Shown in pieces: positions 44,435 through 52,581 of a stretch of 64,000 bases of DNA. The notes under the pieces were generated by a model. The model saw only the letters and a program-made list of their open reading frames with translations. It searched no databases and was not told the origin of the DNA. A program made the position numbers and the translations under genes. The stretch is from Fibrobacter sp. UWB13 (lineage in GTDB: Bacteria > Fibrobacterota > Fibrobacteria > Fibrobacterales > Fibrobacteraceae), in assembly GCF_900177805.1 (NCBI RefSeq), contig NZ_FXAX01000002.1, positions 310,001 through 374,000 of the forward strand. The letters are read 5' to 3'. The number at the start of each line of letters is the position of its first letter. Position 1 is the stretch's first letter.

Positions 44435-45271
44435 ATGAAATACTTATTTGCAATCTCAGCAATTTTACTTTGCGCCTGCACTGACTATCAATCCGACTGG
44501 GAAAATAAATGGGGTAGCGCTTTTACTGCCCCAACCGCCGACGTTCCTAACACCCCGACCCCTATATTAATTTGCTATGAAGGCTCCACAACGGCTCTCA
44601 CAAACAACAACTGCACAACAAACTTCGTTTGTTCCGGCAACAACTGGGTACAAGTCGGCAATCCTGTATGCCAAAATGCAAACACGACTCCGACGCCCAT
44701 AGTCATCCCCGTTGTAACCTTGGGTACCATGACAGATTCCCGAGACAAGCAACAATACGTCACAACAACCATCGGCAAACAAATATGGATGGCTGAAAAC
44801 CTCAATTACACAGATCAAAGCACCCTAATGATGAAAAACAGCTGGTGTTACGACAACGCCGAAAAGAATTGTGCCCAATTCGGCAACCACAAGTATGGTC
44901 GCCTTTATGCGTGGGATGCAGCGAACAAGGCATGTCCTAAAGGCTGGCACCTTCCCACAAAACAGGAGTTCGACCTGTTGCTTAAATCTGTGGGCGGTGA
45001 AGCCATAGCCGGCAACATGCTCAAAACACAAAGTAACGGGTGGCCCGCAGGCGGCGAAGGCATAAACGCTTACGGTTTTTCCGTACTCCCTGCAGGCTAC
45101 CGATACAACCAAGGCGGTTTTTACTATGTCAACCAAATCGCCAATTTCTGGACCAGCACCGAAGACGCAAGCGGAGGAGCATACCGCGTTTCAATCGATA
45201 CGCAAACTAACGCCCGCCCCGGTACAGACTTGAAAGGTTACGGATTCTCCGTCCGCTGCCTGAAAAACTAA
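44435..45271 (+). CDS. FISUMP-domain lipoprotein
   Basis: 278 residues; AGGAGG 5 nt before the ATG. Short lipoprotein signal peptide with lipobox LCAC. After a Thr/Pro-rich stretch with Cys pairs (CYEGSTTALTNNNC), residues ~98-278 form a complete FISUMP domain: DSRDKQQYVTTTIGKQIWM, AENLNY, WCYDN, YGRLYAWDAA, CPKGWHLPT, AYGFSVLPAGY, FWTSTED and the terminal SVRCLKN. Third gene of the cluster beginning at 41436, ended by a strong terminator. Confidence 0.93.
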   Translation: MKYLFAISAILLCACTDYQSDWENKWGSAFTAPTADVPNTPTPILICYEGSTTALTNNNCTTNFVCSGNNWVQVGNPVCQNANTTPTPIVIPVVTLGTMTDSRDKQQYVTTTIGKQIWMAENLNYTDQSTLMMKNSWCYDNAEKNCAQFGNHKYGRLYAWDAANKACPKGWHLPTKQEFDLLLKSVGGEAIAGNMLKTQSNGWPAGGEGINAYGFSVLPAGYRYNQGGFYYVNQIANFWTSTEDASGGAYRVSIDTQTNARPGTDLKGYGFSVRCLKN

Positions 45272-45330: not shown

Positions 45331-47271
45331 CTAAATCCCCACGCCTTTCTCTTTAAGCACCGCCATCACCTCATCATACGGGAGCGGCTTCGAGAAATAA
45401 TAACCCTGCACGCGGTCGCATCCAACCGACTTCAAGAAGTCCGAATGTTCCTTCGTTTCCACGCCTTCCGAAAGCGTTCCAATATGCAATAGCTTGGCCA
45501 TTTCCACAATGGCGCGGATAATCACCTTGGACTTTTCCGTGAAGTTTCGCAAGAACATCATGTCGATTTTCAAAAAGTCAAAGTCATAGTCTTTCAGCAC
45601 GTTCAACGACGAGAAGCCCGAGCCAAAGTCATCCATCCAGACCTCATAACCATCCTTCTGGAAACGCGCTACCTGTTCGTGGATATAGCCGTCCTCATCG
45701 CCATCAAGCACCGATTCCGTAATTTCAACGTGAATCATCTCATGCGGCACATTATATTCCTTGGTCAATCGCGTGAGTTCCTTGTAAATATCACTCAGCT
45801 TAAAGTCCAAGCGCGAGAGGTTAAACGAAATCGGGACGCACTTGTGTCCAAGATTCGTTTCCTCACGATACTTTTCGCAAATTTTCTTGAGCACGAACAA
45901 GTCCAGTTTCTGGATCAAATGCGCATCTTCGAGAATGCCGACAAAATCTAACGGCGGCAAAAATCCGTGTTCCGGGTCATCCCAACGGGCAAGCGCCTCA
46001 AAGCCACAAAGCTTATTCGTATTGATATCCACGACAGGCTGATAATACACCTTGATGTATTCGTTTTTCACAGCCTCGTCAATGTGCGCAATCAGGTACA
46101 TTTTCAGGCGTTCGCGAGCGCCCATCTCATCGGCATAAACTGCGAAATATTCATCGTAAACGCCCTTGGTTGTCGCCTCTGCAAGGCGCGCACGCATAAA
46201 ACAACGTTCAACATTTTCATTTTCAACGCGTTGCACATACACACCCGCCTTGATTTCGAGCACGCCCTGAGTCGAGGAGCTACGAATTTTATCATGAGCT
46301 TCTTTGATCTTGGATTCCACCTCGGCAGCATCACATATCACGCGGAACGTATCGCACGACACATGCGTCACATAGCGCTCCCCGAACAGCGACCTAAACG
46401 TATCCGCCATGAACTTCAACGCATTATCGCCCTCTTCAAAACCAAGCCTTTCGTTAAACGCCTTGAAGTTGTCCAAATCAAAAACGACAAACGCATAACG
46501 TTTCTTGCGATTTCTAAAGAGCAAATCCTGCACGTAGTTCGAAAACAAAAGTTCATTCGGGAGTCCAGTCAACTTGTCATGGTTACGCGCAATCTCCGCC
46601 TGCTGCGTCAAGCGCACCGTCCTGAAAATAAGCTTCACCGCAATCGTAAGCGTAAGCCAGAAGAACCACGATACAAAGACAAGGTAATTCAAAAATTCAG
46701 GAGTTACCTCGATCATGCGCACGCACACATACATGGCGAGGTTCACTAGCATACTAAATAACGTGACAAAACCCAAGAACCCAAAGCGCGCAAAGATTTG
46801 CGTGTTACGGACAAATAAAAGCTCGTTCCAAAGGAGTTTCCACCAAATGAAAATTGCAACCAAGTTTACCAGGGCTGCGCCAACCTGCGTCTTGCCAACC
46901 ACCATGCCGAGGTAACCCACACCGACAGACGCAGAAAGCATGAACAGCGATGGCGACCAGTGAATCGAAAGCACCTTCCCAAAAACAAAAATCGCCACAG
47001 GAATCAGAATGACGCGGCTCATGTAGTCCACTATCACGTCGAGCAATAACGGAACCTCGCCCATCATGCACGTAAGCAAATGCATCATCCCGTGATAAAT
47101 CCAGTCCGAATAAATCATGTAGGGGGTCAGCGAAAAAACAGCACCCCAAAAAAGCACTTTCTTCAGGTTCTGTTTTTCACCAAGCGCCACCAACGTAAAA
47201 AGCAAAAAACCGCTCGCCAACAGCGACGGAAAAAAGAAGACATGATTTGCGTAATCCAGAAAATTTATCAT
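45331..47271 (-). CDS. Membrane GGDEF-EAL protein, predicted c-di-GMP phosphodiesterase
   Basis: 646 residues. The first ~215 form about seven membrane spans, a probable sensor. The GGDEF domain (about 235-365) starts with LTGLPNELLF and has FDLDNFKAFN, but its active-site loop reads SCDTF instead of GGDEF, so cyclase activity is not expected. The EAL domain (about 400-640) is intact: FEALARW, SFNLSRLDF, EITES, MDDFGSGFSSL, LKIDMMF, SEGVETKEH and VQGYYFSKP, which keeps the metal ligands and catalytic residues. It therefore probably hydrolyses c-di-GMP, with the degenerate GGDEF as a possible GTP-sensing module. AGGG lies about 10 nt before the ATG. Confidence 0.93.
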   Translation of the reverse strand: MINFLDYANHVFFFPSLLASGFLLFTLVALGEKQNLKKVLFWGAVFSLTPYMIYSDWIYHGMMHLLTCMMGEVPLLLDVIVDYMSRVILIPVAIFVFGKVLSIHWSPSLFMLSASVGVGYLGMVVGKTQVGAALVNLVAIFIWWKLLWNELLFVRNTQIFARFGFLGFVTLFSMLVNLAMYVCVRMIEVTPEFLNYLVFVSWFFWLTLTIAVKLIFRTVRLTQQAEIARNHDKLTGLPNELLFSNYVQDLLFRNRKKRYAFVVFDLDNFKAFNERLGFEEGDNALKFMADTFRSLFGERYVTHVSCDTFRVICDAAEVESKIKEAHDKIRSSSTQGVLEIKAGVYVQRVENENVERCFMRARLAEATTKGVYDEYFAVYADEMGARERLKMYLIAHIDEAVKNEYIKVYYQPVVDINTNKLCGFEALARWDDPEHGFLPPLDFVGILEDAHLIQKLDLFVLKKICEKYREETNLGHKCVPISFNLSRLDFKLSDIYKELTRLTKEYNVPHEMIHVEITESVLDGDEDGYIHEQVARFQKDGYEVWMDDFGSGFSSLNVLKDYDFDFLKIDMMFLRNFTEKSKVIIRAIVEMAKLLHIGTLSEGVETKEHSDFLKSVGCDRVQGYYFSKPLPYDEVMAVLKEKGVGI

Positions 47272-47772: not shown

Positions 47773-50157
47773 ATGAAATCCAAATTACTCTTAACAACGT
47801 CAATTTTCGCAATCTTCACACTCAACGGCTGTCTCGACGAAGTGACCGAAACGAGCGCTCCGGACTTGTCCGAACTCGCCTGCAAAACGGAACCCCTAGA
47901 CGATGACAGCGGACTCAAGATTATTTGCGGAGGCGATTCCGTGGGTGTCGTTTTGAACGGCAAAGACGGTAAAGATGGTACCGATGGTAAAGACGGTGAA
48001 AAAGGTAAGGATGGAAAATCTGGTACCGACGGTAAAAATGGCAAGGATGGAACAAACGGAAAAGATGGAACTTCCTGCTACGTCACTGAAAACGAAGAAA
48101 TAAATGGCTACGATGTGTTCTGTGGTGACGAAAAGATCGGCTCCATCGTAAACGGCAAGGACGGTGCCGATGGAAAAGACGGTAAAGACGGTAAGGATGG
48201 CGATAAAGGCGACAACGGTGATGACGGCAAAGATGGTAAGGATGGAACGTCCTGCATTGTTAAAGAAAACACAGAAATAAACGGCTACGACGTTATTTGC
48301 GCTGGCGAGAAAATCGGCGAATTGCGCAACGGCAAAGACGGTAAGGATGGTAACGACGGTAAAGACGGCGCGGCTGTAGGTTCTTGCACCGTCGTCGTGA
48401 ACGATGACATCGATGGCTACGATGTCGTATGCGGCGGCGAAAAGGTCGGCGAACTTCGCAATGGCGCCAAAGGTGCTGACGGTAAGAACGGTGAAAACGG
48501 TAAAGACGGTAACGATGGTTCCTCCTGCACCGTCGTCGTGAACGATGACATCGATGGCTACGATGTCATCTGCAGCAACGAAAAGGTCGGCGAACTCCGC
48601 AACGGCGCCAAAGGTGCTGACGGTAAGAACGGTGAAAATGGTAAAGACGGTAACGATGGTTCCTCCTGCACGGTCGTAGTAAATGACGACATCAACGGTT
48701 ACGATGTCATCTGCGGAGATGAAAAGGTCGGCGAACTCCGAAACGGCGCCAAAGGCGCTGACGGAAAGAACGGTGAAAATGGTAAAGACGGTAACGATGG
48801 TTCCTCCTGCACAGTCGTAGTAAACGACGATATCAATGGTTACGATGTTATCTGCGGAGATGAAAAGGTCGGCGAACTCCGAAACGGCGCCAAAGGCGCT
48901 GACGGAAAGAACGGTGAAAACGGTAAGGATGGTAACGACGGTTCCTCCTGCACGGTCGTAGTAAATGACGACATCAACGGTTACGATGTCATCTGCGGAG
49001 ATGAAAAGGTCGGCGAACTCCGAAACGGCGCCAAAGGCGCTGACGGAAAGAACGGTGAAAACGGTAAGGATGGTAACGACGGTTCTTCTTGCACGGTCGT
49101 AGTAAATGACGGCATCAACGGTTACGATGTCATCTGCGGAGATGAAAAGGTCGGCGAGCTCCGCAATGGCGCCAAAGGTGCTGATGGCAAGAACGGTGAA
49201 AACGGTAAAGATGGCAACGACGGTTCATCTTGCACAGTCGTAGTAAACGACGATATCAATGGTTACGATGTTATCTGCGGCAACGAAAAAGTTGGTGAAC
49301 TCCACAACGGCAAGGACGGCGAAGACGCAAAACCTATCGAAACTTTGAGCAACGCTTGCAATACTCTGCGCTCCACAACAGACAAGTTCTCTTCAATGTA
49401 CGACGTTTTCTATTGCCTCCGCTCCAACGAAAAAGTTGCATTCATTCTCCGCCACGCCGCCCGCGATAGAAATAACTATGGTACAAGCGGCAGCCTCAAT
49501 GACATCGGCAAAGAACAATCTGCACAAGTCGGCAAAAAGCTCAAAGAACTCAACATCGGCGATTTCTTCTACATGCACACAAACGTAGTTCGCACCGTAG
49601 AAACAGCAATGATCATTTCTAACAACAAAGGTCAAACAACCGGCAGCGAAAACGAATGGAAAGACAACATAGCCGATGACTACCACATAGAGAACATGGA
49701 CCTTCTTGAATCTTGGTACATAAAAGACGAAAGCAAAAAAAACGCCTGCCAAGGCAAAAATAGCTGGGGATGGAGCATCTATTCAAAAGCAGCCTATGAA
49801 GAATACGACAAAGAAAATAACGACGACAGCAAAAACAAAGACGCATGCGAAGCCGCCTTATACAACATCAAAAACAGAACTCAGGAATTCATCAACACAT
49901 ACTTCACATACGATAAAATGCACAAAATGACCATTGCCATCTCGCACGACCAATTCCTCGTGCCTTTCGTCATCGCCATCAGCAATAAACAAATTCACGA
50001 CGAAAACAACTACACGCTACAATTCCACAAGCACGAAAACGACTTCAACTATTGGATAAACTACCTAACGGGCATCGCCATCATCACTGGTCCTGATGAA
50101 GAAACCACAGTCATCCCAGTCATGGCATTAGACGACGGATTCCTGCGCACCTACTAA
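47773..50157 (+). CDS. Lipoprotein with ten cystine/collagen-like modules and a C-terminal histidine-phosphatase domain
   Basis: 794 residues; GGGAG 8 nt before the ATG. Lipobox LNGC. Ten modules follow, each a ~25-residue Cys-pair unit (S-C-x-V-x-N-x-x-I-x-G-Y-D-V-x-C-G-x-E-K-x-G) joined by Gly-x-x stretches such as GKDGKDGTDGKDG. From 48382 the modules are exactly 47 residues (141 bp) long. After residue ~520 a histidine-phosphatase fold appears: ILRHAARDR (catalytic His), NVVRTVETAMII (second Arg) and AISHDQFLVPF (second His). The canonical RHG reads RHA. This suggests an enzyme displayed on a long stalk from the outer membrane. The substrate is unknown. I know of no described protein with this architecture. 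Confidence 0.93.
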   Translation: MKSKLLLTTSIFAIFTLNGCLDEVTETSAPDLSELACKTEPLDDDSGLKIICGGDSVGVVLNGKDGKDGTDGKDGEKGKDGKSGTDGKNGKDGTNGKDGTSCYVTENEEINGYDVFCGDEKIGSIVNGKDGADGKDGKDGKDGDKGDNGDDGKDGKDGTSCIVKENTEINGYDVICAGEKIGELRNGKDGKDGNDGKDGAAVGSCTVVVNDDIDGYDVVCGGEKVGELRNGAKGADGKNGENGKDGNDGSSCTVVVNDDIDGYDVICSNEKVGELRNGAKGADGKNGENGKDGNDGSSCTVVVNDDINGYDVICGDEKVGELRNGAKGADGKNGENGKDGNDGSSCTVVVNDDINGYDVICGDEKVGELRNGAKGADGKNGENGKDGNDGSSCTVVVNDDINGYDVICGDEKVGELRNGAKGADGKNGENGKDGNDGSSCTVVVNDGINGYDVICGDEKVGELRNGAKGADGKNGENGKDGNDGSSCTVVVNDDINGYDVICGNEKVGELHNGKDGEDAKPIETLSNACNTLRSTTDKFSSMYDVFYCLRSNEKVAFILRHAARDRNNYGTSGSLNDIGKEQSAQVGKKLKELNIGDFFYMHTNVVRTVETAMIISNNKGQTTGSENEWKDNIADDYHIENMDLLESWYIKDESKKNACQGKNSWGWSIYSKAAYEEYDKENNDDSKNKDACEAALYNIKNRTQEFINTYFTYDKMHKMTIAISHDQFLVPFVIAISNKQIHDENNYTLQFHKHENDFNYWINYLTGIAIITGPDEETTVIPVMALDDGFLRTY
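48382..49310 (+). repeat. Tandem 141-bp coding repeat, six full units and one partial
   Basis: Units begin at 48382, 48523, 48664, 48805, 48946, 49087 and 49228 (partial). The period is exactly 141 bp. The third to fifth units (48664-49086) encode the same protein sequence and differ by few silent bases, which indicates recent expansion or gene conversion. Confidence 0.95.
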
Positions 50158-50204: not shown

Positions 50205-50302
50205 CATATATTCAGCATCAAAGCATTCCCCAGAAAGAAATTGAAGAATAGCAAGTCCTTTTTTATATTTGTAAAAATATTTTTTAATCAATGGAGAAAA
50301 AA

Positions 50303-50779
50303 ATGAAGCAAGCCTTTTTGGCAACATTAATCTTTGTCACCACGTTCCTCTTTTCAGGATGCACTCATCAATACGCATTAAAAGAAAACTGGGTAGATGA
50401 TGACGACTTAATATCCATCGTTAGCGCTCCCGATATCAACAAGTGGTCAAAGCAGTTCGGCACCCCCGTATTCACAGAAATTAGACAAGATACAGCAGAA
50501 TTCATCTACAACTACAAGCCACACCTATACAAAAGCGTCGAAGACAACAGAATGTTCAAGCCAAACAACAAAGACCGTGTAGACTTGTGGAACGACCGCA
50601 CAGAATATGTTGGCATTGTTGTTTATCAAGATAAGATTATTCAAGTTCACCCTCGCCCTGACTATGCAGCAACAAAAGAAAAAATAGAAGCCACCGAATC
50701 ATCTTCTTGGATTATTGGACTCATCGGCGGAATTATCGGAACTGCGGCGCTCGTTATTACAATAGTGGAGAACAATTAA
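50303..50779 (+). CDS. Hypothetical lipoprotein with C-terminal membrane segment, 158 residues
   Basis: Start at ATG 50303 with GGAG 6 nt upstream; the ATG at 50291 overlaps this ribosome-binding site and is rejected. Signal peptide with lipobox FSGC. The mature part is acidic then mixed, with KPHLYKSVEDNRMF and a final hydrophobic span (SWIIGLIGGIIGTAALVITI). Having both a lipid anchor and a C-terminal span is unusual. The next gene follows after 5 nt and has the same kind of C-terminal span, so the two are a likely operon and partner pair. No family recognised. Confidence 0.8.
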   Translation: MKQAFLATLIFVTTFLFSGCTHQYALKENWVDDDDLISIVSAPDINKWSKQFGTPVFTEIRQDTAEFIYNYKPHLYKSVEDNRMFKPNNKDRVDLWNDRTEYVGIVVYQDKIIQVHPRPDYAATKEKIEATESSSWIIGLIGGIIGTAALVITIVENN

Positions 50780-50784
50780 ATTCT

Positions 50785-51177
50785 ATGAAATTTTTTTTCA
50801 TCATCTTATTTTGCGCAATCGCTTTATTTGCTCAAGACGACACCTGCCAAAAACTCTGTTTAAAATGTCAAGAAGATTCTTCAGAAGTATGCCTTGAGAT
50901 AAAGCAAAGTTGTGAATGTACCTCTTCAAGCGAAGCATCAGCAACAACCAGCGCTCCTCTTTCCAAAGTGGATTTCGGACAGTTTGGATCCAGTAGCAAT
51001 CAAAAATTCGAACCTATTACAAAAGTAGACTTCGGAAGCAAAGGAGACGACACTCACACGGCAGTTTGGCAAGAAAATGGATCGTATGAAATTCAAAACA
51101 AAAACAAAACTTGGATTATCATCGGAAGTATAGTTCTAACAATACTCACTGCAACAATTTTAGGAAATGTGCTATAG
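50785..51177 (+). CDS. Small exported Cys-rich protein with C-terminal membrane segment, 130 residues
   Basis: From ATG 50785, MKFFFIILFCAIALFAQ is a signal peptide. The mature N-terminus is Cys-rich (CQKLCLKCQEDS, VCLEIKQSCEC). Two copies of a KVDFG motif follow (LSKVDFGQFG and ITKVDFGSKG), and the protein ends in TWIIIGSIVLTILTATIL, a single span. The longer frame from 50707 is read from inside the upstream gene and rejected. Five nt after the previous lipoprotein gene, with a strong terminator after it. Function unknown. Confidence 0.8.
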   Translation: MKFFFIILFCAIALFAQDDTCQKLCLKCQEDSSEVCLEIKQSCECTSSSEASATTSAPLSKVDFGQFGSSSNQKFEPITKVDFGSKGDDTHTAVWQENGSYEIQNKNKTWIIIGSIVLTILTATILGNVL

Positions 51178-51597: not shown

Positions 51598-52581
51598 TTA
51601 CGGCACCTCAACAGAGTCCAAAATCTTCTGCACGACGGTTTCGGCAGTGACTTCTTCCGCTTCAGCTTCGTAGCTCAGAATCACACGGTGGCGAAGCACT
51701 TCCATCGCAACAGCCTTCACATCTTCCGGCGTCACGTAGGCACGGCCCTGGATAAACGCATGAGCCTTCGAAGCCTGTGCAAGACCGATAGAAGCACGCG
51801 GAGAAGCGCCAACTTCCACAAAGCCCACCAAGTCACTACGCTTGAAGCTACCTGGATCACGCGTAGCCAAGACCAAGTTCACGATGTATTCGCGCACACG
51901 TTCGTCCACATAAACCTGCTTCACAAGCTCACGAGCCTTCAAGATATCTTCCTTCGTCGCGACCGCATTCGGCTGACGCAGCCCCGCACCCGAAACCGCA
52001 TCGAGAATCTTCATTTCGTCAGCCTTATTCGGATAGCTAACCTTCACCTTCAAGAGGAAACGGTCCACCTGAGCTTCCGGCAGCGGATACGTACCTTCCT
52101 GTTCAATCGGGTTTTGCGTGGCAAGTACCAAGAACGGTTCGTCCAGTTTGAACGTTTCGTCGCCAATCGTGATGTGGCGTTCCTGCATGGCTTCGAGCAA
52201 GGCACTCTGCACCTTCGACGGAGCACGGTTAATTTCATCAGCAAGTACAAGGTTCGTAAAAAGCGGGCCCTTGCGCGTTTCGAACTTCGCTTCGCGGGCG
52301 TTATAAATCGTTGTACCGAGCAAATCTGCCGGCAGCAAATCAGGAGTAAACTGGATGCGCTTGAAGTCGAGCGAAACAGCATCGGCAAAAGCCTTCACCG
52401 CAGTCGTCTTGGCCAAGCCCGGGAGGCCTTCCAAAAGCACGTGGCCATCTGCCAAAATACCCGTCAGAATGCTTTCGACCATAGCCTTCTGACCAATCAC
52501 CGTATCTTCAACTTCACGCAGCAAGTTCATGCAAAAAGAACTCTGCTGTTTCACCTTTTCCGAAAGTTCCTGAATATCCAT
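51598..52581 (-). CDS. MoxR-family AAA+ ATPase
   Basis: 327 residues. Walker A EGLPGLAKTTAVKAFA (about 55-70), Walker B NLVLADEINRAPSKVQSALL, sensor 1 LVLATQNPIEQEGTYPLPEA, arginine finger region QVDRFLLKV and the C-terminal lid GASPRASIGL. MoxR ATPases work with DUF58 and vWA proteins in chaperone-like maturation of enzymes or envelope complexes. AGAGG precedes the ATG. The usual neighbours are absent here: the DUF58 gene is at 30223 and a BatD-like gene at 57945. Confidence 0.95.
   Translation of the reverse strand: MDIQELSEKVKQQSSFCMNLLREVEDTVIGQKAMVESILTGILADGHVLLEGLPGLAKTTAVKAFADAVSLDFKRIQFTPDLLPADLLGTTIYNAREAKFETRKGPLFTNLVLADEINRAPSKVQSALLEAMQERHITIGDETFKLDEPFLVLATQNPIEQEGTYPLPEAQVDRFLLKVKVSYPNKADEMKILDAVSGAGLRQPNAVATKEDILKARELVKQVYVDERVREYIVNLVLATRDPGSFKRSDLVGFVEVGASPRASIGLAQASKAHAFIQGRAYVTPEDVKAVAMEVLRHRVILSYEAEAEEVTAETVVQKILDSVEVP

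Follow-up and report, generated by a model that had tools for sequence, protein, structure and literature searches.

A collagen-stalked lipoprotein of Fibrobacter with a histidine-phosphatase head: one branch of a family-wide set of putative surface phosphatases

The analyzed stretch of DNA, in the following referred to as the window, comprises 64,000 nucleotides of Fibrobacter sp. UWB13 and harbors on its forward strand an open reading frame of 794 codons, which spans exactly positions 47773 to 50157. The features of this gene and the two landmark genes that flank it are given below.

45331..47271, - strand: GGDEF-EAL gene, landmark, conserved left flank (Pfam EAL and GGDEF; synteny)
47773..50157, + strand: entire gene, encodes a 794-aa lipoprotein composed of a collagen/cystine stalk and a histidine-phosphatase head (ORF; Pfam Collagen and His_Phos_1)
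47773..47832, + strand: signal peptide and lipobox LNGC, residues 1-20 (sequence; orthologues)
47881..49311, + strand: stalk, residues 37-513, ten modules of C-x14-C-x(GxVGxxxNG) plus Gly-x-x runs, 71 triplets, 20 Cys (sequence; PF01391 in 8 stretches)
48385..49311, + strand: 141-bp tandem repeat array within the stalk, 6.6 copies (Tandem Repeats Finder, score 1357)
49357..50154, + strand: phosphatase head, residues 529-794 (PF00300; AF2 model; Foldseek, VIA-align)
49450..49464, + strand: RHAAR motif, residues 560-564, with R560, the presumed nucleophile H561, and R564 (R, H and R invariant in 52/52 heads)
49591..49593, + strand: R607, putative phosphate-binding Arg (invariant 52/52; N-terminus of model helix 85-98)
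49945..49950, + strand: H725-D726, the second catalytic His and the Asp presumed to donate the proton (invariant 50/50; after model strand 198-203)
51598..52581, - strand: MoxR ATPase gene, landmark, conserved right flank (Pfam AAA_3; synteny)

The N-terminus MKSKLLLTTSIFAIFTLNGC closes with a plausible lipobox (LNGC, residues 17-20, read by eye), for which orthologues carry LYGC, LTGC or LCGC. A lipidated N-terminus had already been proposed in a sequence-only reading of the window, and the lipobox Cys following the signal peptide is indeed present. The protein contains 25 Cys residues, one of which belongs to the lipobox, 20 to the stalk units and four to the head. An artefact or chance open reading frame is ruled out by the reading frame, the tandem-repeat score, the Pfam matches and the conserved synteny. 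A phage or plasmid origin was also rejected, since tblastn searches with the head against 50,697 phage and 72,556 plasmid records gave no match; matches to PHROGs tail fibers fall on the Gly-x-x stalk. Just upstream of the GGDEF-EAL gene, a FISUMP lipoprotein is encoded (44435-45271, + strand; PF09603, E 5e-33), and downstream of the phosphatase gene lie two small ORFs for secreted proteins or lipoproteins (50291-51177, + strand), the first of which had no Pfam match and the second none when scanned from position 50785.

The stalk is composed of exactly ten two-Cys units, in each of which C-x14-C is followed by a short GxVGxxxNG strand, and of Gly-x-x runs between them, which are 5-13 triplets long and add up to 71 triplets, with one two-Cys beta unit per 40-65 residues. 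The Pfam Collagen model PF01391 matches with an E-value of 9e-27 (93 bits, cutoff 27.2) in eight stretches, and the alternation of cystine and Gly-x-x units described earlier from the sequence is supported. A match to CBM53 across the stalk was taken as a repeat artefact, because no single stretch passes alone. There are two proline residues in the entire stalk, and K, A, D and N predominate at the x positions. The identical 21-residue string GAKGADGKNGENGKDGNDGSS, which belongs to the 141-bp tandem repeat, makes up six of the Gly-x-x runs. The score of this repeat is far beyond chance, and the 6-23 of 141 bases that differ among its first six copies indicate an array of recent, though not very recent, origin.

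Across 30 aligned stalk units, taken from the window and from related loci, both Cys are invariant. In the AlphaFold model of a stalk unit, which comprises three beta strands (10-15, 20-25 and 28-34; modest confidence with a mean pLDDT of 69, about 83 for the first two strands), C10 and C25 begin and finish an antiparallel hairpin and therefore face each other, and a disulfide inside each two-Cys unit is likely according to this model. The stalk as a whole may form a trimeric triple helix; since the Gly-x-x runs are short and nearly proline-free, it is uncertain whether such a helix would be stable at gut temperature.

A collagen-like stalk with a C-terminal head is also present in Lcl of Legionella, which forms a trimeric lollipop according to electron microscopy and homologues of which occur in the Fibrobacterota-Chlorobiota-Bacteroidota phyla (PMC11162425). 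In contrast to Lcl, the stalk of the window protein is nearly free of proline and interspersed with the two-Cys beta units, and its head is a phosphatase domain rather than an Lcl_C/FISUMP domain; Pfam detected no PF07603 (Lcl_C) in the window protein. With the streptococcal proteins Scl1 and Scl2 the stalk shares GKDGKDG-type triplets, and the NCBIfam Scl2 model matches across the stalk with an E-value of 8e-19. However, this match is far under the Scl cutoff (68 vs 325 bits), and the window protein differs from Scl in that it has no LPXTG anchor, carries cystine units and bears a different head.

The head alone is matched by His_Phos_1 (PF00300) with an E-value of 1.5e-5 (25.2 bits, cutoff 21.7), as are 31 of 33 family members at E ≤ 0.01. 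PF00328 was absent from the window protein at E ≤ 1 and from the 33 family members at 0.01. A profile of the family matches PhoE (1h2e) with an E-value of 1.8e-9, and this match covers both catalytic His. An AF2 model of the head (273 residues), for which an alignment of 15 sequences from the window and related loci served as input, reached a pLDDT of 92.3 and a pTM of 0.92. When this model was used in Foldseek, 263 matches were obtained at E ≤ 1e-3, the best 50 of which are histidine phosphatases of both branches of the superfamily, with PGAM5 (3mxo, E 2.5e-7) as the top match. From the sequence, a phosphatase fold had been proposed, and it was not rejected by the profile search but supported by the Pfam match above cutoff, the model and the Foldseek matches. 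Structural alignment with VIA-align placed the head close to SixA (1ujb; Z 12.1, rmsd 3.0, 149 aligned residues), the Vip1 phosphatase (9grn; Z 11.6, rmsd 4.2, 185 aligned), prostatic acid phosphatase (2hpa; Z 11.4, rmsd 3.8, 191 aligned), PhoE (1h2e; Z 11.2, rmsd 4.5, 184 aligned), MINPP (9qz0; Z 10.6, rmsd 4.3, 198 aligned) and Klebsiella phytase (2wnh; Z 10.5, rmsd 4.2, 199 aligned). Since these Z-scores are middling and mostly lie within about one unit, the fold leaves the choice between branch 1 and branch 2 undecided.

The active site was analyzed in an alignment of 52 heads from 37 Fibrobacter genomes, 50 of which cover H725, D726 and W761. R560, H561, R564 and R607 are invariant in all 52 heads and H725, D726 and W761 in all 50, although the identity to the window head is as low as 23%. 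In the model, R560 and H561 terminate strand 33-39, the predicted site required by the fold, and R607 and H725-D726 likewise occupy the predicted sites. The clustering of the catalytic residues, judged solely by their positions on predicted strands and helices, is therefore not contradicted. The sequence-only reading had listed both catalytic His, the second Arg and an RHA motif, all of which are present, and R564 and D726 can now be added. It had further regarded RHA instead of RHG as a departure from the consensus, which does not hold, since the third motif position varies between A, G and S across the 52 aligned heads and RHADR is found in yeast Asp1 (PMC4177672). For the same reasons, and because every catalytic residue is kept, we rejected a degenerate active site. 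Whether the head is an enzyme or a ligand-binding domain had been left open in that reading; the invariant catalytic residues favor the enzyme over the binding function, and the head is, judged by these residues, apparently a real and active phosphatase.

The assignment to one of the two branches of the superfamily is less straightforward. Branch 1 (PF00300; PhoE, SixA, PGAM5, PmrG/Ais) shares with the window head the Pfam model, the best profile matches, the domain size as well as both His and the core Arg. Unlike branch 1, however, where the second motif is HG or HN, the window head carries HD, has an additional invariant Arg in RHxxR and is part of a lipoprotein on a stalk. It also differs from the PGAM/PhoE type in the conserved acidic Glu: the E646 column contains E, D, G, Y or A across the heads, and no other conserved acidic column was found at the branch-1 Glu position in the head alignment. 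SixA-type members of branch 1 likewise do without this Glu. Branch 2 (AppA phytase, Agp, prostatic acid phosphatase, MINPP, Vip1/Asp1) resembles the window head in its fold (Z 10.5-11.6) and in RH(G/N/A)xR...HD, the signature of histidine acid phosphatases (PMC4177672); for phytases, proton donation has been ascribed to the Asp of HD (PMC3969271). In contrast to branch 2, the window head has no PF00328 match, and its RHAARDR does not contain the Pro of RHGxRxP. In an attempt to place the C-terminal half in branch 2 by profile, only 3ntl was matched, at chance level (E 0.97), its HD being aligned with that of the window head. Several helices are located between R607 and H725 in the head model; with about 270 aa compared with 350-480 aa in the listed solved branch-2 chains, there would probably be space for a small cap at most. 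We conclude that the gene represents the stalked part of a so far undescribed set of lipoprotein phosphatases that extends across the family and combines an active site of the branch-2 type with a domain of the branch-1 type.

The spread of this set was determined among genomes of the genus, the family and the phylum Fibrobacterota with a profile built from the closer alignment rather than from the full family alignment. Matches were obtained in all 80 Fibrobacter genomes, with 1-11 heads per genome, in 16 of 31 other genomes of the family and, weakly (best E 4.8e-9), in only 8 of 57 genomes from the rest of the phylum. The named matches are all Fibrobacter or Fibrobacteria MAGs, with sources including yak reticulum and horse feces. 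RHxxR and HD occurred together in none of the seven matches outside the Fibrobacteraceae, which are short RHG-type proteins, five of them with a clear HG. On the whole, these relatives resemble ordinary RHGE...HG enzymes.

The heads are carried by Ser-rich linkers, by collagen/cystine stalks, by a long region with a KGPF motif and no Pfam model, and once by an FGE-sulfatase-like domain; since ORFs were classed by simple rules, some of the labels "short" and "long" are due to contig truncation or to frames that are too long (L013, L066, L116). The 22 heads on collagen stalks all lie inside one well-supported group of 35 in a tree that comprises 77 heads. The fusion of stalk and enzyme, which had been considered unusual, is a design that recurs within one clade of this large family of the Fibrobacteraceae. 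In the genome of the window itself, FISUMP heads (PF09603, Lcl_C-like) are located on the same collagen/two-Cys stalk modules (L041:3040-5073, - strand; L043:2560-5754, - strand). As different heads occur on common stalk modules and the phosphatase heads on different stalks, stalk and head represent recombining modules. An FGE-sulfatase-like domain (PF03781, E 3e-35) precedes a paralogous head in a fusion protein of genome G132 (L114:4591-7329, + strand), and in the genome of the window a paralogous head and an FGE-sulfatase-like protein are encoded by adjacent, separate lipoprotein genes (L042:1693-4809, + strand), which together suggests a functional link. Phosphatase lipoproteins also occur as tandem pairs (L039:4385-8670, - strand; also L033, L035, L036 and L038), many of them with the long KGPF region outside all Pfam models.

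Orthologues in other Fibrobacter genomes are located between the same GGDEF-EAL and MoxR genes, and their stalks vary from 27 to 143 triplets. At least four classes can be distinguished among their heads, with about 77-97% identity within a class, a few intermediates aside, and about 44-65% between classes. Between the window and L108, the GGDEF-EAL protein is 94% identical and the head 58% (dS 1.14 for the head vs 0.42 for the flank), whereas between L064 and L065 the GGDEF-EAL protein is 75% and the head 94% identical. The discordance of head classes and flanking gene points to an exchange of whole alleles at this locus, which we consider likely on the basis of these comparisons. Positive selection on the head was rejected, as dN/dS was below 1 in every pair with usable dS, dS being near saturation. 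Together with the unchanging catalytic residues, this indicates that the diversification preserves the enzyme. In the gene neighborhood, no link to phosphate uptake was found.

From the invariance of the catalytic residues we derive a mechanism in which the head would act like histidine acid phosphatases: R560, R564 and R607 would bind the phosphate group, H561 would attack it to form a phospho-histidine with the assistance of H725, and D726 would donate a proton to the leaving group, after which water would liberate the phosphate. Such an activity, as suggested by the sequence, would be exerted at the cell surface, where the lipoprotein is presumably located. The protein is thus probably an outer-membrane-anchored phosphatase of the histidine superfamily, which is held off the cell by a collagen-like, cystine-reinforced stalk and releases phosphate. 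Its most likely task, to judge from the analysis, would be to liberate phosphate, outside the cell, from phosphomonoesters that are small or linked to polymers, for example phytate or sugar phosphates, the choice of substrate being a guess.

Alternatively, the head could modify phosphates on a surface polymer or on neighboring cells (LPS core, teichoic acid, phosphoproteins), with the stalk providing reach. Such a role would be in line with a weak match to PmrG, an LPS heptose phosphatase (E 6e-4), with the different stalks that carry the several paralogues of a genome and suggest different targets, and with the polymorphism of head classes at one locus, but the PmrG match reaches 19 bits compared with a model cutoff of 170, and polymer-synthesis genes are absent beside the window gene, so that we regard it as rather unlikely. 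It is improbable that the protein is chiefly an adhesin with the phosphatase fold as a ligand-binding head, as Lcl_C/FISUMP heads probably are: a pure binder would lose the six catalytic residues, all of which are invariant in the family, even though FISUMP heads share the stalk modules in the same genome, head classes are swapped between strains like surface antigens, and Lcl of Legionella, likewise on a collagen stalk, is a glycosaminoglycan binder (PMC11162425).

We give still less credence to a long lipoprotein that lies in or spans the periplasm and has its phosphatase head there. Periplasmic acid phosphatases are common, and a signal peptide with a lipobox alone does not prove surface display. 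However, with a length of about 0.29 nm per residue, the 71 triplets would, if extended, measure about 60 nm even without the ten beta units, which exceeds a typical periplasm, and the variable stalk length of the orthologues is unlike that of a ruler spanning the periplasm. A phosphatase displayed outside the cell remains the reading that we prefer.

Fibrobacter species are key degraders of plant fiber in the herbivore gut, and to our knowledge little is known about their surface lipoproteins. In the literature search, no paper was found that joins collagen-like proteins, or Fibrobacter, with histidine phosphatases, and the main text of the surface-proteome papers on F. succinogenes S85 names neither a phosphatase nor a collagen protein. 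Every species searched encodes several of the phosphatase lipoproteins per genome, which points to an extracellular activity that is important and so far undescribed, perhaps phytate or phosphate release. If the catalytic set of one branch is indeed carried on the domain of the other, this would bear on the kinship of two textbook branches of the superfamily, and a collagen/cystine stalk that bears quite different heads represents a natural display scaffold. As a tentative and rather speculative extension, the Fibrobacteraceae might possess lineage-specific phosphatases with a branch-1-sized core and a branch-2 catalytic set, which radiated as interchangeable stalk heads, the one in the window being a polymorphic surface enzyme exchanged between strains and diversified by substrate, phage or grazer pressure. 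Several paralogous heads contain one in-frame stop within the match (G135:C216, G110:C233, G145:C14, G148:C48 and others) and are possibly decaying copies.
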